64,000 nucleotides of DNA from an uncultured Lachnospiraceae bacterium (lineage in GTDB: Bacteria; Bacillota; Clostridia; Lachnospirales; Lachnospiraceae), in the NCBI GenBank assembly GCA_947648875.1, contig CANSPM010000005.1, forward strand, positions 1 through 64,000, read 5' to 3'. Within the stretch, counting starts at the first letter, position 1. Each line of letters begins with the position of its first letter. Positions 30,925 through 51,283 of the stretch are shown piece after piece. The notes under the pieces are model-generated. The model did not search any database. It was not told the DNA's origin and saw only the letters and a list, made by a program, of their open reading frames with translations. The translations under genes were made by a program, and so were the position numbers.

Positions 30925-33900
30925 TTATCTTGCCGCTGCAGCTTTTACCGGCACAACCCTTTTATCCTTCTTTATGAAAAGTATAAAGGAAATGCAGGCC
31001 AAGCCCATAGCCAGGAACCACTTGGGATGTATTCCGTCACCTGTCTTAGGCGTGCTATCCTGAATCGTTCCTGCGGACAGATCCGTTGTATCCACATAGA
31101 TCACATAGGGTGAAAAATGTGTAGCCGTAAAGCTAATGCAGGGTACTCCGTTTATTGTGGTAAATCTGGGTGTCAGTTTATCCAATCTGTTGTTTATCAC
31201 ACCGGCAACCTTGTTATTACCCGCATAAGGAATCAAAGAGTCCGGAATGGGCAAGGTAATATCCACTGCCAGGCCGGTGGTATCCGTTATCTTGGTTGTC
31301 CCGGTGGAATCATAGAGACTGATATCCATGGGGAAATAGGAGACCTTTGTCAGATCACCGTATTCATTCATAAGAGCCTGTAACGCGGCTTCTGTCGCAT
31401 TGGCGTCCTCCGAAATCTTCACCACAAAATTATCCGAAGATCCGTTGACCGTCACAGAGGCCTGCCCTGTGTTGGACAACCCGTTCTTGGTGATCACAAG
31501 TGTCGTACTGCCGTTGTTTGTGGAAGTCCCTGTACTATTATTATTGTTGTTATTGCTGCCCCCCGTGCTACCGCCAGGCCGCGTTACAGTACTACTGTTG
31601 GTCTTCGACCTGTAATTCGCAGTCATGACGACATTGGATGCCGGCATAATCAGCACGGTTCCCATCGCGTCCTTGCTGGCCACCAGCGCCGTGGCAGGTT
31701 CCACCGTCCACCCGCTGAACTCCGAATTGTTGCTGGGGTTATCCGCAATTACTATAACCTGTGCACCTTCTATATAGCTACCGGAACCGGAACCGTTCCT
31801 TACTGTCAGTGTAAAGATTCCCGGTGCAGGGCTGGGAGAGGGTGTCGGTGAGGCGGCCGGAGGCTGATTAGGTCCCGGCGTAGCCGTAGGTCCCGGTGTC
31901 GCTGTAGGTCCCGGTGTCGCAGTGGGGCCAGGTGTTGCCGTAGGTACGGGGGTCTGATTCGGATCCGGTGTCCTGTTCGGATCAGGTGTCTGGTTCGGAT
32001 TAGGTGTCTGGTTCGGATCCGGTGTTGCATTAGGATCAGGCGTAGGAGTAGGCAGTAATCCCGTATACTCATACTGCGCATAAGTATCCATATCCCTGTC
32101 AATCACCGAGATATCCGGCAGCCAACCTGTAAAAGTGTAGCCAGGTCGTTCAGGTATCTTAATATCCGGAATCATATCACCAGGCGCCACACGAACCGAG
32201 TAAAACAGATTATCGTTCTTGCCGGTCTCTTCGTTCCAGGCATAGAAATTGATCGTAAATTTACCCTCGTCAGAATCAATTTTCTCATATTTCGCATATA
32301 CAGTTATGTCACTCTGAATATTTGTAATAGGAGGAGCCCATCCTATGAATCGATAACCTTCTTTGGAAGGCGTCAATCCCTTTGCATCCTCTCCGGGAAA
32401 AACACGTTCCGTACCCAATACAGTCAGGCCGTCATCATCCATAAAAGTAACCGTAAACTTGGATTCCTCCAAATCGTCCGCTTTGTACCGGGCTTCAATG
32501 ATAGTGTCCTTACCAATATCCTCATAGCTGGGATACCAACCCTGGAATGTATAGCCTTCGAATACCGGCAGCTTATCATCAGGCGGAACCGCATCTTCTC
32601 CGGCAACTACCTTCTGAATATCCAGCGTGTCATAATCTCCCACCAGATCTGCGGGATTCTTAGGTGCGACAAAAGTAACCTCAAATTCAATTACCAGCGG
32701 CTTATCAATGGGATTAATATTTTCGTTGCTGGGGCTGGTGGCATACATATATGCAGTGCTGGGATTTTCACAGGAAAATTCAATAGTGTGATAATTATCC
32801 CTGTAAATCCCGTCATGCTCTTTGCTCGTGTCATTCGGAGGCGTAGTGTCGTCCGCTACATCTTTAGGACTGTTGCCTGTTGTATTGAATGCCTCTGGAT
32901 CAATATAGGAGACGCTGGCCGGAATATCTACCATACTGATCTTACTGTTTTTAAATGCGTTTACCTTTATCTGCTGACAGGTTTTCGGCAGATATACGGC
33001 AAACAGATTGTTTGTCGCAGGACTGTTCTTATCAACACTGTCCCCGGCAAAAGCATATTCGGGCACCTCTGTGATGGAGGACTGGCTCAGATCCACTATA
33101 CCTACATTTGTATTGTAGAATGCCTCTCTGGCAATTCCTGTAACCCCTGCCATCTCATCGGCTTTAATATAGGTGGAACCATTGCTCTTTCCTCTGGCTT
33201 CCAGACATTCCACCACCGTACTCTTCTGGTCACCGTTCATGCCATAAATGATTGAGTCTATGCAGGCGAAATTGGGACCGCCCTGGAAACTCACATCCTT
33301 TACATAGGTACAACCGGCAAAAGGTCTCACACCCATGGCGTTCACATTGGAGGAAATCTCAACCGTCTCCAGTTTTTCACAGCCCATAAAAGCATGATCT
33401 CCTATAGACGAAGTCTCTCCCAATATATATACGCTCTTTAAACTCTTGCAATCCTTGAAGGTCTCTGCCGGAATCTCAGCTATACCTCTGGTAGTAATGG
33501 ACTTATCCGGTTCACTTTTACCTACTTCTTTCTTTGCAAACAAACCATTTTGTACCGCCTCAATTCCTTGGGGCAGTTCAATGCTGAGGGCCGCGTTTAT
33601 AATTGCCCTTTCATTTTCCGTCATGGGACTGGTATCAGTACCCTCATACTTTCCTATTGCCTTTTTCGCCGCCTCCTCATATTCCTGCGTTATATAAGGA
33701 TAGTTCGCCGCTGTAAATACTGGTGTGGTAGCCTTTAAATCAGCAAATGTAGGGTAATTCGTCAACTCATTCTTATCCGTGTCAGGATTATACTGCACCG
33801 TCAGATTGGTGGGCCAGCCACTATAATAGGTGATATATGTGCGCTCCTGACTTCCCACATTGATATTGTTAGCCGGATTCATAGCGTAATCAAAGGGACC

Positions 33901-36069
33901 GCTGGCATAAGATATATCTCCTGTAAATGTCAGTTTTACATCGCTTCCTATCGCCTGATCCGGACATGTACTTTGATGAAGCGTCACATCCTGTGTCTTA
34001 AACGCGTTAGCGCCTATCTTACATTGCACCGGGCTCTCAAAAATCACATGTTCCAGGTGATGACATCCCTTAAATGCTTCATCCGCAATCGTCAATACGG
34101 AGGAAGGAATTGTGATCTTTTTCAATGCACAGTTATTCCTGAAACTGCTTGAATTGATGGCCGTGATCCGGTAAGGTCCAATGGTAGAAGGCATTACTAC
34201 AGTGGACATTCCGTCATCCAGATGACAGTATATTAATTCGTTTTTGGAGTTAACCCTGTAAATCGCCTGTTTTTGGCCTGTAGGATCATCAGGGTCTTTT
34301 ATCACGATCTCATAGACATCCTCCTTTAAATATTTAAAAGCAATACTGTTGTCATTGGCTGTCTTATGAAGTCCGCCTGACGGCTTATCACCTGTCAGCG
34401 CCCTGTTCACTCCCTCAAAATAGAACGTCGAGGGCACCATCTTCTTAAAATCTTCAAAAGTAAAATCCTTGCTGCTGTCATCCGGAACTTTACCTGGTAC
34501 AAAATTGGCATTTTCATTGATTACTGTTAGGGACTGTAGCGAAGTACAGCCATATACCATGCTGAGTTCCAGCTGGTCGCTGGATACATTGCTGGGAATT
34601 GTCAGGCTGGTAAGGCTTCTACAGTTCATAAAGACATGGTCACCGATTGTGTTCAGTGCTTTTATCTCATCTTCACTGTGCAGACCAATCTCCGCCAGAG
34701 CATAACAATTCTCAAACGCACCATCCCCTATTTTTGCCACTGACACAGGCATATTAAAAGAACGCAGACTCTGACAATTATAGAAAGCATGGTCCCCAAT
34801 CCCGGCAAGGTTGCTGTGTAAATCCGTATTAATCTCTTTAATATTTATACAGCCATCAAAAGCATGGTTCCCGATTGCCCGCAGACCATTGCCCAACGTA
34901 ATGCTCTGTAAGGAACTACAATCAGCAAAAGCATAGTTGCCAATACCAATCAGATTATTTCCAACCTTCAAGTTGACTACGTTTCCACTTTTTCCTTGGA
35001 AAACGCCCTTGATACTGGAAGTGTTTTCAGGTGTGATCCAATCGCTGATCGTTGTCTTATTATCTGCGCTGATGGATACCGACTGGCTGGCTATATGCGC
35101 CACCGCAACATTTATGATCCACTGCTTACTGGAATCATCACCCACTTGTTCAAACTGTTGGGAATCCTTACTGTCATAACTCTTATAACTGTCCGTATTA
35201 ATTGTACCGTCAGGATTATGGGCCGCCTTAAGTGTATAAAAATCTTTCAGTTCATACTTGCCCCAGCCCTTTTCGGTTTTATCACTATAATAACAGGGCA
35301 GATACTCCGATGTGACTATGGGCTTTGTGAGATCATCCGTCTTAATCGTAACATCTCTCTCAACCGTTTCCCACACAGGATTTCCGTCTTTATCTACCTT
35401 CTGCTGTTCCTTCGGCGTGCCATCATCATTATACACCGGCTTTCCATCAGCGCCAAGTACCGCCTCCATCTGAGGTTTCCTGTCGCCCATGGCGGAACTC
35501 CATTTGTCCACTTCAACCTCTTTGTTATCTTTCAATACATAAAACAAATGCTTTTCCGTAACTTCCTGCTGCTCATAGGTAGGCTCACCTGTCACCGGAT
35601 CCAACACCGGTGTATCCTTCCTCCAAAACAGGAAATTACCTGCTCTTCCCACGGCTACATATCCTCTGCCGCCGGACCCCAGATTGGATGTAAACAAATC
35701 GTACACTTCCACCTCATTGGGAATTTCCAGTGTATTGCCCTCCAGGCTGTTGGGAGGATTATATCCCACGATCACTGCGTTTCTTGTGCCTGCATGAGGA
35801 TTGCTGCTGTCATTTGACACATACGCAAACTGGAAGACACCGTCACCCGTGGCATATACTTTCTCATCCGCCCTTAATTTGGGAATACCGCTTTCCGCCT
35901 CGCTCACAGTCACCTTCAGATCAGCCGTTGCCTCTCCCGATGCCTGCAAACCGTCTACCGGAATTGCCGCTACCGCAATGGCAGACGCCAGGAACAGAGC
36001 TCCCAAAGTCTTCCTTACTCTCTTTCTTAATCTTCTGCTTTTCATAGTCTTCGCCATCTTAACAACCAT
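30925..36069 (-). CDS. Giant BspA-type LRR cell-wall protein with InlB-type repeats and Pro-rich stalk
   Basis: This 1714-residue protein has a basic signal peptide (RRLRKRVRKTLGALFLASAI). An N-terminal beta region of unknown type spans about 50-330. Many BspA leucine-rich repeats occupy about 340-1080 in two blocks. Three Listeria-Bacteroides (InlB B) repeats follow, for example EGYRFIGWAPPITNIQSDIT. A TPDPNQTPNPNQ/PTATPGPTATPGP stalk comes near 1385-1440, then a second Gly/Asn-rich stalk and a small domain. The C-terminus carries TPKTGDGIHPKW, a hydrophobic helix and a basic tail. It is probably anchored by the sortase encoded just upstream and displays a long adhesive or scaffold rod. Confidence 0.9.
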   Translation of the reverse strand: MVVKMAKTMKSRRLRKRVRKTLGALFLASAIAVAAIPVDGLQASGEATADLKVTVSEAESGIPKLRADEKVYATGDGVFQFAYVSNDSSNPHAGTRNAVIVGYNPPNSLEGNTLEIPNEVEVYDLFTSNLGSGGRGYVAVGRAGNFLFWRKDTPVLDPVTGEPTYEQQEVTEKHLFYVLKDNKEVEVDKWSSAMGDRKPQMEAVLGADGKPVYNDDGTPKEQQKVDKDGNPVWETVERDVTIKTDDLTKPIVTSEYLPCYYSDKTEKGWGKYELKDFYTLKAAHNPDGTINTDSYKSYDSKDSQQFEQVGDDSSKQWIINVAVAHIASQSVSISADNKTTISDWITPENTSSIKGVFQGKSGNVVNLKVGNNLIGIGNYAFADCSSLQSITLGNGLRAIGNHAFDGCINIKEINTDLHSNLAGIGDHAFYNCQSLRSFNMPVSVAKIGDGAFENCYALAEIGLHSEDEIKALNTIGDHVFMNCRSLTSLTIPSNVSSDQLELSMVYGCTSLQSLTVINENANFVPGKVPDDSSKDFTFEDFKKMVPSTFYFEGVNRALTGDKPSGGLHKTANDNSIAFKYLKEDVYEIVIKDPDDPTGQKQAIYRVNSKNELIYCHLDDGMSTVVMPSTIGPYRITAINSSSFRNNCALKKITIPSSVLTIADEAFKGCHHLEHVIFESPVQCKIGANAFKTQDVTLHQSTCPDQAIGSDVKLTFTGDISYASGPFDYAMNPANNINVGSQERTYITYYSGWPTNLTVQYNPDTDKNELTNYPTFADLKATTPVFTAANYPYITQEYEEAAKKAIGKYEGTDTSPMTENERAIINAALSIELPQGIEAVQNGLFAKKEVGKSEPDKSITTRGIAEIPAETFKDCKSLKSVYILGETSSIGDHAFMGCEKLETVEISSNVNAMGVRPFAGCTYVKDVSFQGGPNFACIDSIIYGMNGDQKSTVVECLEARGKSNGSTYIKADEMAGVTGIAREAFYNTNVGIVDLSQSSITEVPEYAFAGDSVDKNSPATNNLFAVYLPKTCQQIKVNAFKNSKISMVDIPASVSYIDPEAFNTTGNSPKDVADDTTPPNDTSKEHDGIYRDNYHTIEFSCENPSTAYMYATSPSNENINPIDKPLVIEFEVTFVAPKNPADLVGDYDTLDIQKVVAGEDAVPPDDKLPVFEGYTFQGWYPSYEDIGKDTIIEARYKADDLEESKFTVTFMDDDGLTVLGTERVFPGEDAKGLTPSKEGYRFIGWAPPITNIQSDITVYAKYEKIDSDEGKFTINFYAWNEETGKNDNLFYSVRVAPGDMIPDIKIPERPGYTFTGWLPDISVIDRDMDTYAQYEYTGLLPTPTPDPNATPDPNQTPNPNQTPDPNRTPDPNQTPVPTATPGPTATPGPTATPGPTATPGPNQPPAASPTPSPSPAPGIFTLTVRNGSGSGSYIEGAQVIVIADNPSNNSEFSGWTVEPATALVASKDAMGTVLIMPASNVVMTANYRSKTNSSTVTRPGGSTGGSNNNNNNSTGTSTNNGSTTLVITKNGLSNTGQASVTVNGSSDNFVVKISEDANATEAALQALMNEYGDLTKVSYFPMDISLYDSTGTTKITDTTGLAVDITLPIPDSLIPYAGNNKVAGVINNRLDKLTPRFTTINGVPCISFTATHFSPYVIYVDTTDLSAGTIQDSTPKTGDGIHPKWFLAMGLACISFILFIKKDKRVVPVKAAAAR
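31840..32045 (-). repeat. Low-complexity Pro/Thr repeat tract in the giant LRR gene
   Basis: The DNA repeats short units coding for PDPNQT and PTATPG. Such tracts form extended stalks that carry domains away from the wall, and they can change length by slippage. The boundaries are approximate. Confidence 0.8.
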
Positions 36070-36142: not shown

Positions 36143-37330
36143 TCAGCTTTCCACCCGTTTGGCTACCACCACGAATCTCCCGTCACTCACATAGTAGTCG
36201 CAGGTGGACAGGGTCAGCAGATGATCTCCATAGCTGGCCGTCACCCCTGTGTCATACAGAGACATGGCCGCCATCTCCTGCATATTGGAGTCGAACTCCT
36301 GCTGGCTCCCGGCGTCTATAAACTGGTAATACTTGAAAATCACGTCCTCTTCACTGTAAATCTTCGAGCGAAACACATACATGACTTCATATGTACCCTT
36401 CTCATAGATTGAGTCAAACTGAATCACCGGATGTTCTTTATAATATTCTTCAGAACTGTATTTGTCCAGCGTACCGAACATATTGCCGCTCTTCATATGG
36501 TGCCCGTAAATAATCAGGTTGGTACTGGGCTCCAGCACATCACAGTCCTTGTCAAGAAAAAGCGCCCCGTTTCTGTCTGTCTGCTGGTCAAAATTGTGAT
36601 TCAGATAGTACTCATTGTTCGTTGTCTGCATAACAGGGTAATCTATCTTTGTATCGTCAATTTTCAGCCATCCGATTAGCCTTTTGTTGCTATTATATAA
36701 ATTTTTATATTCGTCTAGGATTTCCGGGATCACCCGCTCCCCCTCTTCCGTGTAATGAATCAGGGGACCACCGGTCACTTCCTGAATGGGCAGATCCTGT
36801 GCCCTCTCCCGAAAAGCCGCCAGGCGGGCAAATTCCCGCTCCGTTCTGGACGCCTCATAGGTATATATGCCAAAATATCCCAGACATCCCACCGCAACCA
36901 CGCTACACAGAAGAGCCAGTCTTTTTCGGATTTTCTCCCTGCGCTGAAGTTCCTCCTGCACAAACCTTTCCATCTGAGCGTCCTGTCCCGGTTTTTCCGG
37001 CGGCGACTGCGCCGCTTTCCTTTTGCCCGGAGACTGCCCTGAAGACTTCTTTGCCGCCTGCCTTCCCTTCCGCTTACCTGCGGCAGACGACGAATTTGTG
37101 AGCTGCTGCAATGCCTCCTCCGCTTCCTCCATGAAATCCTGTCCAAGCAAAGTGAGGAAAGGATATTTTTTCTGTTGTAAAGCCTTGACCAGCTGGGAAA
37201 GCTGACTGCGGTTCTGAAAGTCTATCTGCTCCCGCAGCTGGTCGATCACCTTTTTGTCTCGGAGAGCTCTTCGGTAATCCGCCTCTGTGCGAAACTGTCT
37301 CCCCTCCACAATATAAACCTTCTGTGCCAT
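36143..37330 (-). CDS. srtB: Class B sortase with long N-terminal cytoplasmic extension
   Basis: This 395-residue transpeptidase attaches surface proteins to peptidoglycan. The catalytic residues are His in LIIYGHHMKSGNMFG (about 265), Cys in TLSTCDYYVSDG (about 370) and Arg in GRFVVVAKR. A single transmembrane segment (LALLCSVVAVGCLGYFGIYT) lies near residues 140-160. About 135 charged residues precede it, including a Lys/Ser/Pro-rich stretch, which is unusual because class B sortases usually start near the membrane helix. The two downstream LRR proteins with PxTGD tails are the likely substrates. Confidence 0.92.
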   Translation of the reverse strand: MAQKVYIVEGRQFRTEADYRRALRDKKVIDQLREQIDFQNRSQLSQLVKALQQKKYPFLTLLGQDFMEEAEEALQQLTNSSSAAGKRKGRQAAKKSSGQSPGKRKAAQSPPEKPGQDAQMERFVQEELQRREKIRKRLALLCSVVAVGCLGYFGIYTYEASRTEREFARLAAFRERAQDLPIQEVTGGPLIHYTEEGERVIPEILDEYKNLYNSNKRLIGWLKIDDTKIDYPVMQTTNNEYYLNHNFDQQTDRNGALFLDKDCDVLEPSTNLIIYGHHMKSGNMFGTLDKYSSEEYYKEHPVIQFDSIYEKGTYEVMYVFRSKIYSEEDVIFKYYQFIDAGSQQEFDSNMQEMAAMSLYDTGVTASYGDHLLTLSTCDYYVSDGRFVVVAKRVES

Positions 37331-42083: not shown

Positions 42084-42404
42084 CTAATCCGCATCACAAC
42101 CGCAGGTCTCACCGCTGGAAATGCTGGGGAAATTGTTCCACGCGGAGGGTCCGCCCTGCCTACAGTCATGGTCGTGATCATCATGGTGGTCATGATGATC
42201 ATGATGGTCATGGCAGTCGTGGTCATCATGCATGGCCGGACATCTCACAGGACCACGATTTTCCCTCATACAGGGGCAATCGTTGTCACAATGCCGATCT
42301 CTCCGGCAGCAATTATTGCAGCTTCCACCGCATCCACAGCTACCTCCCCAACTGTTTTGGCAGCCGCCGCAGGTCAGCAGCAAAAGGATAATCAGACAAT
42401 TCAT
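42084..42404 (-). CDS. Small Cys- and His/Asp-rich protein, putative metal binder
   Basis: This 106-residue protein starts with a short hydrophobic segment (MNCLIILLLLTCGGC). A cysteine-rich region follows (GGSCGCGGSCNNCCRRDRHC), then an alternating His/Asp run (HDCHDHHDHHDHHDDHDHDC) and a short tail ending GETCGCDAD. I recognise no named family. The composition suggests binding of soft metals by cysteines and Zn, Cu or Ni by histidines. The N-terminus could be a signal or lipoprotein-like anchor. Spore-coat or exosporium proteins of Clostridia can be similarly biased, which is another possibility. Confidence 0.65.
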   Translation of the reverse strand: MNCLIILLLLTCGGCQNSWGGSCGCGGSCNNCCRRDRHCDNDCPCMRENRGPVRCPAMHDDHDCHDHHDHHDHHDDHDHDCRQGGPSAWNNFPSISSGETCGCDAD

Positions 42405-42455: not shown

Positions 42456-44567
42456 TTAATGTTCCTGATCCGCCTGTCTGTTTCCGCTATAATAAACAGT
42501 AATACTCCTGGGACCGGTCCGCAGTACCTGCCCTTCCGCAGTCGCCTGCCCCTTCTCCTGATCTGCCTGCGTCTTTGCCGCATCCGCTCTACCTGCCTGT
42601 CCTGCCTCTGTGCAAAGCACCTTTCTCCATATTTGTCCTCTGGGAAGCCTGGGCAACGCAAAATCGTGGCTTTCCCAATGCATGTTTACCGCGATATACC
42701 AGCAACCCTCATCCTTTTCCTTGCCATAAACGCCATTCAGCAGAATGCCGATGTGACGGTTATAGGCATCCCAGACAGGTCTCCAGGCCTCCGAGCCATG
42801 ATAGGACAGATCCGGACTCCCACAGGAGATGTAATCCATCAGGCGACACTCCCGCTCCAAATGAAAAATACTGTGCTGTCTGCGCAGACAGATCAACTCC
42901 CGCACAAAAGCATACAGATCGCCATGCCTCTCCCGTTCATTCCAATTTACCCAAGTCACTGCGTTATCCTGACAGTAAGGATTATTATTGCCCCTCTGGG
43001 TCCGCCCAAACTCATCCCCCATGAAAAAATAGGGAGTCCCCTGAGATAACATAAGCAGGGTGAACGCATTGCGCAGCTGCTTCATCCGCAGGATCTGTAT
43101 CTGTTTTTTGCGGGAAGCCCCTTCCGCGCCGCAATTCCAGCTGTAATTGGAGTCGCTGCCATCCCTGTTGTTCTCTCCATTGTCCTCATTGTGTTTCCTG
43201 TCATAAGAAACCATATCCATCATGGTAAAGCCTGCATAATCCGCAAAATAGTTAATCACGCCCTTTTGGCGGGGATTGCACCGCATTCTCTGCATAGCCG
43301 CATACAGCATACCCTCATCCCCCTTCAAAAAGCGTCTCATCTCCTGCTGGAAACCCTCATTATAGACAGCCAGATTTCGATACCTTGGTGTTTTTTCATA
43401 GCCATAAATCTGCTCTGTAGGGAAATCATAATACCAAATCTTTCTGTCACAGAGAGCCGGGTCCGACGCTATCGCATGACTCTGTAACGCTCCCCCCATC
43501 AGATGAAAACCATCCACATGGTAAGTCCAACTCCAGTAGCGCAGTATGTTCAGGATTTCATCCGTGGGGATATGATCCGGAAAATAGAACTGTAAAATAA
43601 TCTCCATCCCTCTGGCATGCAACGCCTTCACCAAATCCTTAAGTTCCGTGGCAACATCATCTGTAGCGGCATAACCTCGTTTGGGCGCGTAATAGTACCC
43701 CTCCTGGTATCCCCAGTAGTTCAGCCTGGCCTGGCCACAGGCCTCCTGTTTCTCCTTGTGGGGACGTTTTCTGCCTCCCACAGCCTGTCCATCTTCTCCC
43801 TGGGATTCGGACTGACTACGAGATTGGATTTGTCCCTGTGCTCTGACTCGGTCCTGTGAACCAAATTGCCCCTGTGCGTCAATTTGCTCCTTGGGTTCGA
43901 ACCGTTCCTGCGATTTGGCAGGCTCCGGCATTCCGGTCTGCATCTGCGCCTCACATGCCACATGTTTCATCCACGGCGCATCAGCGATCCCCGTCTCCAG
44001 CCGCTCCGATTCTATCTGTTCATAGATGGGTTGCAATTCTATTGTGGTAATTCCAAGCTGTTGTAGGTAATTCAATTTTTCTCCGATTCCCGCAAAAGTC
44101 CCTCTGTTCTTTACACCTGATGAACTATGCATGGTAAAACCCCTGACATGCATGCCATAGCAGATCACATCTTCGTAGGAGATTCTGGGACAGGCATCCC
44201 CCTCCCAGTCATAGGGGGTATCGTTAATTACCGCCCGATAATCTCTGGGACTGTGAGGCGCGCCATATTTCCCCTTGATTTCAAAAGCACGGGCCCAACG
44301 GTCAGGAAACACCTTGTTTCCACTATAAAACAGATAACTGATCCGCTCCGCAGGAACTCCCGTGAGTACACCATACCGAACATTACCCAGTCTGTCCTGA
44401 GGCCTAAATGCATACTTTTTAAGTAGTCTGCCGCTCTCTCTCTGGTAGACCAACACGCCGCAGTCTTCCTCCTTGGAGGGAAAAGAAACCCTGATGCCGT
44501 TCATTTCCCGCCCAAATGAATACGCCCCGTAAGGGAATGGAAAATTCAAATATGTCATTTCGCCCAT
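42456..44567 (-). CDS. GH13-fold protein lacking catalytic residues (debranching-enzyme-like pseudoenzyme)
   Basis: This protein of about 703 residues resembles glycogen debranching enzymes: an N-terminal CBM48-like domain, a barrel (YGMHVRGFTMHSSSGV, NYLQQLGITTIELQP), and a C-terminal beta domain. The barrel ends MVSYDRKHNEDNGENNRDGS and YFFMGDEFGRTQRGNNNPYC are typical. The catalytic positions are not: region I reads EIILQFYF instead of a D-x4-NH pattern, region II DGFHLMGG instead of DGFRxD, and region IV NYFADYAGF instead of the HD pair. A Gln/Ser-rich insertion lies near residues 215-280. It may bind but probably does not cleave glucan. The start is the ATG at 44567 behind AGGAGAGG. Confidence 0.8.
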   Translation of the reverse strand: MGEMTYLNFPFPYGAYSFGREMNGIRVSFPSKEEDCGVLVYQRESGRLLKKYAFRPQDRLGNVRYGVLTGVPAERISYLFYSGNKVFPDRWARAFEIKGKYGAPHSPRDYRAVINDTPYDWEGDACPRISYEDVICYGMHVRGFTMHSSSGVKNRGTFAGIGEKLNYLQQLGITTIELQPIYEQIESERLETGIADAPWMKHVACEAQMQTGMPEPAKSQERFEPKEQIDAQGQFGSQDRVRAQGQIQSRSQSESQGEDGQAVGGRKRPHKEKQEACGQARLNYWGYQEGYYYAPKRGYAATDDVATELKDLVKALHARGMEIILQFYFPDHIPTDEILNILRYWSWTYHVDGFHLMGGALQSHAIASDPALCDRKIWYYDFPTEQIYGYEKTPRYRNLAVYNEGFQQEMRRFLKGDEGMLYAAMQRMRCNPRQKGVINYFADYAGFTMMDMVSYDRKHNEDNGENNRDGSDSNYSWNCGAEGASRKKQIQILRMKQLRNAFTLLMLSQGTPYFFMGDEFGRTQRGNNNPYCQDNAVTWVNWNERERHGDLYAFVRELICLRRQHSIFHLERECRLMDYISCGSPDLSYHGSEAWRPVWDAYNRHIGILLNGVYGKEKDEGCWYIAVNMHWESHDFALPRLPRGQIWRKVLCTEAGQAGRADAAKTQADQEKGQATAEGQVLRTGPRSITVYYSGNRQADQEH

Positions 44568-44653
44568 GTTTTCCTCTCCTGTTTTTCGTCCCACAGATTG
44601 CCCTACTGCGCTTTTGCCTCGGAATCTGCTGAATTTCATTCTTATATATACTG

Positions 44654-50346: not shown

Positions 50347-50991
50347 CTATGCGATCTGCCCAAGCTGCTCTTTAATGGTACGCAGTTCCGTCTCCAGAAT
50401 ACTGACACGTATTGCTATCATTTCCTTTTCATCATCTGTCTTTGTCGCTTCCCGCAGCCTCCGATATAAATCCTGATGGCCCTCCGCAACGCGCATTATA
50501 CTCGAACGGATCTCATTTTCCAGAGTCAACTTGACAGCTGTAACATCACATTCCAGCTGGTCCTGTTTTTCTTTGAGTTCACCAATTTCATTTTCCAGCC
50601 CTTCAAGCTTTTCCTTAAACCCTCTGAATTCGCTCTCCAGCCTGTCAAGCCTTTCCTTAAATTCTCTGAACTCGCTCTCCAGCCTGTCAAGTCTTTCCTT
50701 AAATTCTCTGAATTCGCTCTCCAACCTGTCAAGTCTTTCCTTAAATTCTCTGAACTCACTCCCCAGCCTGTCAAGCCTTTCCTTAAATTCTCTGAACTCG
50801 CTCTCCAGCCTGTCAAGTCTTCCATTAAATTCCACAAACATGCTCTCCAGCCTGTCAAGTCTTCCATTAAATTCCACAAACATGCTCTCCAGCCTGTCAA
50901 GTCTTCCATTAAATTCCACAAACATACTCTCCAGCTTGTCGATCTTGTCCAGTTTGGCAAGAATCAAATCCAGTTTTTCACTTTCTGTCAT
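50347..50991 (-). CDS. Tandem 14-residue coiled-coil repeat protein
   Basis: This protein of about 214 residues consists mainly of ten successive 14-residue units such as RLDRLESEFREFKE and RLDRLESMFVEFNG, with hydrophobic residues at 3-4 spacing, a long parallel coiled coil. The short N-terminus (MTESEKLDLILAKLDKI) and the helical C-terminus (about 145-214) are not repeated. No signal or membrane segment is present. I choose the ATG at 50991 behind GGAGGGTATGTT. I know no function; scaffold or multimerisation is a guess. Confidence 0.75.
   Translation of the reverse strand: MTESEKLDLILAKLDKIDKLESMFVEFNGRLDRLESMFVEFNGRLDRLESMFVEFNGRLDRLESEFREFKERLDRLGSEFREFKERLDRLESEFREFKERLDRLESEFREFKERLDRLESEFRGFKEKLEGLENEIGELKEKQDQLECDVTAVKLTLENEIRSSIMRVAEGHQDLYRRLREATKTDDEKEMIAIRVSILETELRTIKEQLGQIA
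50600..50945 (-). repeat. 42-bp tandem repeat array coding for the coiled coil
   Basis: The DNA repeats a 42-bp unit, with three units near 50815-50940 nearly identical at DNA level (ATTAAATTCCACAAACATGC shared). Others form a second subtype (TTAAATTCTCTGAACTCGC). Recent duplication and likely copy-number variation follow from this. The boundaries are approximate. Confidence 0.85.
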
Positions 50992-51283
50992 AACATACCC
51001 TCCATACCTTGTCTGTTGTACAGGAAAAATTCCAGTATTATCCGCATTCCAGATATCTGTCCTGAAAATCTCCTGCCTGTATTCAGTTGCGTTCGGTTTG
51101 AATTTCAAGCATAGATTTCCTGATCTTCTGAAATGAGAAAAGTCCTAGTGAAAAAGAATATATGCTTTGAAAGTATAGTAGCATATGCAAACTGGAATTG
51201 CAAGCGAAATTTTCTCTCCTTAAAGCAATTTCTGCCAGATATTCTGCTTATGGACTTGAAAAATCGCTTTGCAACCCCAATTT
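50992..51283. other. Intergenic region between feoB and the coiled-coil gene
   Basis: This 292-bp AT-rich gap follows the feoB stop on the minus strand and leads into the coiled-coil gene. It contains no convincing ORF. A possible -10 TATACT lies near 51175, without a good -35. No Fur box was recognised. Confidence 0.4.

Follow-up and report, generated by a model that had tools for sequence, protein, structure and literature searches.

In plants, the isoamylase ISA1 (GH13_11) has a non-catalytic paralogue, ISA2, in which the isoamylase fold is retained and the nucleophile and most catalytic residues are lost, and which has long been kept in one large lineage (PMC12510319, PMC3787081). Why selection maintains a non-catalytic isoamylase is an open question for plants (PMC12510319). 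The active site of the Pseudomonas isoamylase consists of Asp-292, Val-294, His-297, Arg-373, Asp-375, Glu-435, His-509 and Asp-510 (PMC3787081). In bacteria, GH13_11 is represented by GlgX (TIGR02100). In Streptomyces venezuelae GlgX bound to acarbose, the outer sugars are contacted by Glu470, Asn534 and Tyr536, with Trp222 and Tyr224 as further glucan contacts; its c-di-GMP contacts (Glu47, Arg49, Arg56, Arg438 and Arg579) are conserved among Streptomyces GlgX and absent from other GlgX proteins tested (PMC9530166). That bacterial glycogen metabolism can include a non-catalytic subunit is shown by GlgD, the regulatory subunit beside GlgC; one survey gives two glgX homologues for Blautia obeum, with active and inactive forms not separated in the passage concerned (PMC10395257). 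GlgD differs from the protein described here in belonging to the GlgC family, not to GH13. No description of an inactive bacterial GlgX or GH13 pseudoenzyme was found in the literature searched, which covered few subscription journals. rBAT and 4F2hc are subunits of animal amino-acid transporters and belong to another GH13 branch. Their ectodomains, termed "fake or orphan alpha-glucosidases" (PMC8537225), are likewise alpha-amylase-family domains, serving another protein.

The window analysed here (64,000 nucleotides from an uncultured Lachnospiraceae bacterium) carries a minus-strand open reading frame at 42456-44567, which was annotated as a GlgX/isoamylase-like pseudoenzyme of 703 aa based on the open frame, the ribosome-binding site, GlgX-like profile matches and a fold model. 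The preliminary description had reported a frame intact over 700 codons; it was found to comprise 703 codons without internal stop, from an ATG at 44567 to a stop at 42456, with the ribosome-binding site AGGAGAGG at 44573-44580 (minus strand) 5' of the ATG. A longer alternative with an in-frame start at 44639 is without comparable ribosome-binding site support.

The AlphaFold model, run with a 93-sequence alignment, is a confident barrel with N- and C-terminal beta domains (pLDDT 86.7, pTM 0.87). The top PDB fold match in Foldseek was rice ISA1 with a TM-score of about 0.74, and GlgX and TreX were also matched (probability 1.00 for all three). The closest solved relatives were, in this order, plant ISA1, Chlamydomonas isoamylase, Streptomyces GlgX, Sulfolobus TreX and E. 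coli GlgX. With GlgX the protein shares fold, domain order and the segments KHNE.NGE.NRDG, SWNCG and GDEFG.Q.GNNN.YCQDN. Unlike GlgX, it is without the triad, the conserved region II Arg, the region I and IV His and the beta3 and beta4 loops, and it matched the TIGR02100 profile (E 5.8e-88) with 295.7 bits, less than half of the curated cut-off of 640.9. The N-terminal beta domain (residues 10-105, 44253..44540, minus strand, from model strands) takes the position of CBM48 and is weakly conserved; CBM48 was matched in 7 of 27 relatives and not in the window protein. A Q/E-rich insert predicted to be disordered lies mid-barrel (residues 187-280, 43728-44009, minus strand; pLDDT <50 at about residues 204-277, 43737..43958). 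Relatives L004 and L005 carry other inserts at roughly the same place of the barrel. The C-terminal beta domain (about residues 580-696, 42480..42830, minus strand) was assigned from the model and weak isoamylase C-terminal Pfam matches. The related members L004 and L032 end in approximately 160 aa that form a complete O6-methylguanine-DNA methyltransferase (PF01035/PF02870, with the PCHR motif), fused in frame.

None of the eight active-site positions of Pseudomonas isoamylase is kept in the window protein, where Gln326, Tyr328, Asp331, His355, Met357, Tyr380, Tyr444 and Ala445 were aligned to them; Arabidopsis ISA2 keeps two. Alignment to solved isoamylases and GlgX bore out the loss of catalytic residues from regions I, II and IV that had been read from the sequence earlier, and region III, which had not been listed, is lost as well (KIWYYDFP versus KLIAEAWD). 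In the region I remnant EIILQFYFPD (residues 322-331, 43575..43604; all four remnants on the minus strand), Asp, Val and His are gone, the latter being replaced by Asp331. The region II remnant DGFHLMGG (352-359, 43491..43514) has His355 for Arg and Met357 for the nucleophile Asp, the region III remnant KIWYYDFPT (376-384, 43416..43442) has Tyr380 for the acid/base Glu, and the region IV remnant YFADYAGF (440-447, 43227..43250) has Tyr444 for His and Ala445 for the stabiliser Asp. The beta3 loop of active GlgX (roughly 44 aa) and the beta4 loop are missing in >80% of the triad-less family; in the model, beta3 (322-328) runs into a helix at 335. The window protein is thus an isoamylase/GlgX fold, predicted with high confidence, in which all catalytic residues are replaced and the model contains no Asp/Glu/Asp triad. 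Judged from these replacements, it has presumably lost catalytic activity.

An intact triad was missing in the window protein and all of its 29 best relatives, and likewise at 49 of 49 loci from a named genome collection, so the loss is neither accidental nor a lone mutation. In a tree of 116 proteins, which contains no ISA2, one branch (SH-aLRT 100) splits 84 triad-less proteins from 32 triad-intact GlgX, so that the loss noted for the single protein proved to be conserved throughout one clade. Nearly all of the 84 are labelled Lachnospiraceae, a few named records having other NCBI family labels. The triad-intact side covers Bacillota, Bacteroidota, Cyanobacteriota, Deinococcota, Actinomycetota, Myxococcota, Thermodesulfobacteriota and Calditrichota (eight phyla), and a single loss is therefore simplest. 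When 245 genomes across the class were searched with a single-sequence query, by which very divergent members could be missed, the best-matching triad-less proteins were all from Lachnospiraceae, and three matches in other families were triad-intact. Among 76 aligned triad-less members, the nucleophile Asp and the region I His were each found in none, the Glu in 12, the stabiliser Asp in 8 and the Arg in 14; no triad residue is kept in 57 members, one in 18, two in 1 and three in 0.

Searches placed the window protein nearer to ISA1 (phmmer 3e-65, Foldseek 5e-53) than to ISA2 (1.3e-27 and 2e-39). Since ISA2 ranked well behind both ISA1 and GlgX, the loss in Lachnospiraceae was probably independent of that in ISA2. 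The two also differ in that ISA2 assembles with ISA1, whereas an active paralogue of the Lachnospiraceae protein is usually absent.

Among gut bacteria, Lachnospiraceae are major fermenters of starch and glycogen. Distribution was recorded in 299 genomes of the family (about one per genus). A first search with the window protein gave matches in 243 of them, triad-less and active forms were told apart by E-value using a second search with an active GlgX query, and a profile search added five split or divergent copies. The final counts, which are similarity-based with the triad read directly in 84 proteins of the triad-less form, were 237 genomes with the triad-less form (about 79% of sampled genera), 99 with active GlgX, 93 with both, 144 with the triad-less form only, 6 with active GlgX only and 56 with neither. 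Active GlgX is absent from 200 genomes, 144 of which still have the triad-less form, whose retention is thus independent of active GlgX. In the window genome, 17 GH13 matches were found and no active GlgX or isoamylase among them; two are branching enzymes, two are type I pullulanases whose nucleophile motifs are intact, and several are glucosidase-like.

The presence of other alpha-glucan genes explained little of this distribution. glgA and glgD are near universal and hence uninformative: they were found in 31/31 and 36/36 of the genomes tested that have only the triad-less form, and in 46/49 and 39/44 of those without it. Because both genes are almost as common without the triad-less form, finding it does not point to glycogen metabolism in particular. 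Type I pullulanase was a weak predictor (13/36 carriers versus 6/44 non-carriers; p 0.03, uncorrected), and a GH133 enzyme was found in 9/36 carriers, all nine of which also have a pullulanase, versus 0/20 non-carriers. As a separate observation, glgA and glgD occur in many Lachnospiraceae genomes in which neither GlgX nor a type I pullulanase nor (where tested) a GH133 debranching enzyme was recognised.

Selection was compared in one Lachnospiraceae genus with both genes. dN/dS of the triad-less form was 0.058 in a close pair, rising to about 0.12 in more distant ones, against 0.023 and about 0.04 (range 0.023-0.044) for active GlgX in the identical species pairs, with synonymous sites near saturation in the distant pairs. 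A further pair of the triad-less form also gave 0.058. Compared with active GlgX, the triad-less form evolves two to three times faster, yet is clearly constrained by purifying selection. The preliminary view of a catalytically dead protein that is maintained agrees with its single clade, dN/dS of 0.06-0.12, wide retention and a model without the triad. As the catalytic residues are gone and the gene is still selected, mostly without a working GlgX, a job other than cutting is indicated.

Residues of the outer subsites were located after the published S. venezuelae numbers had been shifted by three, as the alignment showed, to match the PDB chain. Glu470, Asn534 and Tyr536 of the Streptomyces enzyme correspond to Glu465 (76/76 members), Asn529 (76/76) and Tyr531 (74/76), and Trp222 and Tyr224 to Trp285 (76/76) and Tyr287 (Tyr in 65/76, Phe in 11/76). 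Glu465 lies in the conserved segment KHNEDNGENNRDG...SWNCG (residues 458-480, 43128..43196, minus strand), Asn529 and Tyr531 in GDEFGRTQRGNNNPYCQDN (517-535, 42963..43019, minus strand). The mean frequency of the top residue was 0.70 for beta7-beta8 versus 0.47 for beta4-beta6 and 0.39, the lowest value, for the N-terminal domain. This contrast in conservation suggests that glucan binding outlived cutting, with structural constraint as the alternative for part of it.

We therefore put at about an even chance the reading that the protein is a non-catalytic derivative of GlgX, probably an alpha-glucan-binding scaffold or sensor similar to ISA2, with no obligate GlgX partner. An ancestral GlgX-type debranching enzyme in Lachnospiraceae would have lost the catalytic nucleophile and the pocket-closing loops; sublineages would then have differed in how the remaining -1 subsite residues decayed, with the rest of the fold retained. 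The present-day protein would use the outer-subsite face of the barrel, which is retained, to bind alpha-glucan (glycogen or maltodextrin), taking part in glycogen handling as a binding scaffold or a sensor that does not cut. The glucan-binding scaffold that the preliminary description had proposed is compatible with the near-invariant outer-subsite residues, the binding itself being suggested by residue conservation. Counting against a glucan role, the conserved segments may be structural and most are also conserved in the active enzymes, the gene is located away from glycogen genes, and the domain in the place of CBM48 is the least conserved. The more general statement, that such pseudo-debranching enzymes act alone across the family as glycogen receptor or scaffold, joined in some lineages by an uncharacterised DUF5662 protein, is advanced tentatively, at slightly less than an even chance.

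The gene is surrounded by housekeeping genes (uvrD-type helicase, gltX, DUF1292 and others), not by glycogen genes, which is consistent with vertical inheritance and gives little guidance on function. At 28 of 49 triad-less loci, a DUF5662 gene of the same orientation lies no more than about 850 bases downstream, and the two genes often overlap or almost do; this was seen at 0 of 26 active-GlgX loci (p 1e-7, kinship ignored). The strongest rival explanation draws on this arrangement: the barrel might bind another ligand or a protein outside alpha-glucan metabolism, perhaps together with the DUF5662 protein encoded downstream. The housekeeping neighbours and a presence that does not track glgA or glgD would fit such moonlighting, but the outer glucan-contact residues are almost invariant, and many carriers lack DUF5662, which was not found in the window genome either. 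The predicted DUF5662 fold gave no significant PDB match, the best being an HD-GYP domain at E 0.49, a mere hint. We regard moonlighting as unlikely, at perhaps one chance in four.

Less probable still is a role as regulatory subunit to a catalytic enzyme of alpha-glucan metabolism, after the manner of ISA2 and ISA1, with active GlgX or, elsewhere, pullulanase, GlgP or GlgB as the partner. Precedents are ISA2 (PMC3787081) and, from the same pathway, GlgD (PMC10395257), and the triad-less form is found in 93 of the 99 genomes with active GlgX versus 144 of the 200 without (p 4e-6, kinship ignored). These 144, which include the window genome, nevertheless carry it without active GlgX, and 23 of the 36 such genomes tested had neither a type I pullulanase above cut-off nor a GH133 enzyme. 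An obligate pair with GlgX of the ISA1-ISA2 kind was ruled out by the co-occurrence counts. The regulator of an active paralogue, the other role suggested initially, was accordingly not upheld: with no active GlgX in the window genome and 144 genomes having the triad-less form alone, the protein is not simply such a regulator.

That the protein is still an enzyme with changed catalytic machinery, maybe the missing debranching enzyme where no other exists, appears very improbable. Many carriers are without a recognised debranching enzyme, and activity is known for a GH13 amylase in which one triad residue is replaced (PMC5347038), but this exception retains the nucleophile and the acid/base. 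BmaN1-type aberrant GH13 proteins keep nucleophile and acid/base and have His for the stabiliser, whereas all three are replaced in the window protein and the nucleophile occurs in 0 of 76 relatives. The residues at the lost catalytic positions differ between members, so that no substitute catalytic residue stands out; their surroundings show no new conserved acidic pair, and the loops of the pocket are missing. These debranching enzymes are also lacking in genomes with neither form, and the gap is therefore not filled by the triad-less form alone. A decaying pseudogene, to which the two- to threefold faster evolution relative to active GlgX of the same species might point, has a negligible probability and is refuted by selection and distribution (frames of about 600-700 codons open family-wide, dN/dS well below 1, 237 of 299 genomes).

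Like ISA2, the family-wide GlgX derivative of Lachnospiraceae is a presumably inactive member of the isoamylase fold that selection has kept, here without an obligate catalytic GlgX partner. It offers a bacterial test case, without a confounding active partner, for the question of selection raised by plant ISA2. Similarity-based glgX counts would take in the triad-less form, whose match to the GlgX model (E 6e-88) falls under the curated cut-off; as about half of the sampled genera have only this form, such counts would credit them with an absent debranching enzyme.

Further observations were made in the window. A small minus-strand ORF at 42084-42404 is His/Asp/Cys-rich (HDHDCHDHHDHHDHH) and possibly metal-binding; it had no Pfam matches. 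At 30925-36069 (minus strand), a repeat-rich surface-type protein of 1714 aa with a C-terminal PKTGD-like sorting signal is encoded, adjoined by a sortase-like gene at 36143-37330 (minus strand). A 42-base tandem repeat (7.7 copies, 91% matches) occupies 50594-50916 within a coiled-coil-like ORF at 50347-51108 (minus strand).
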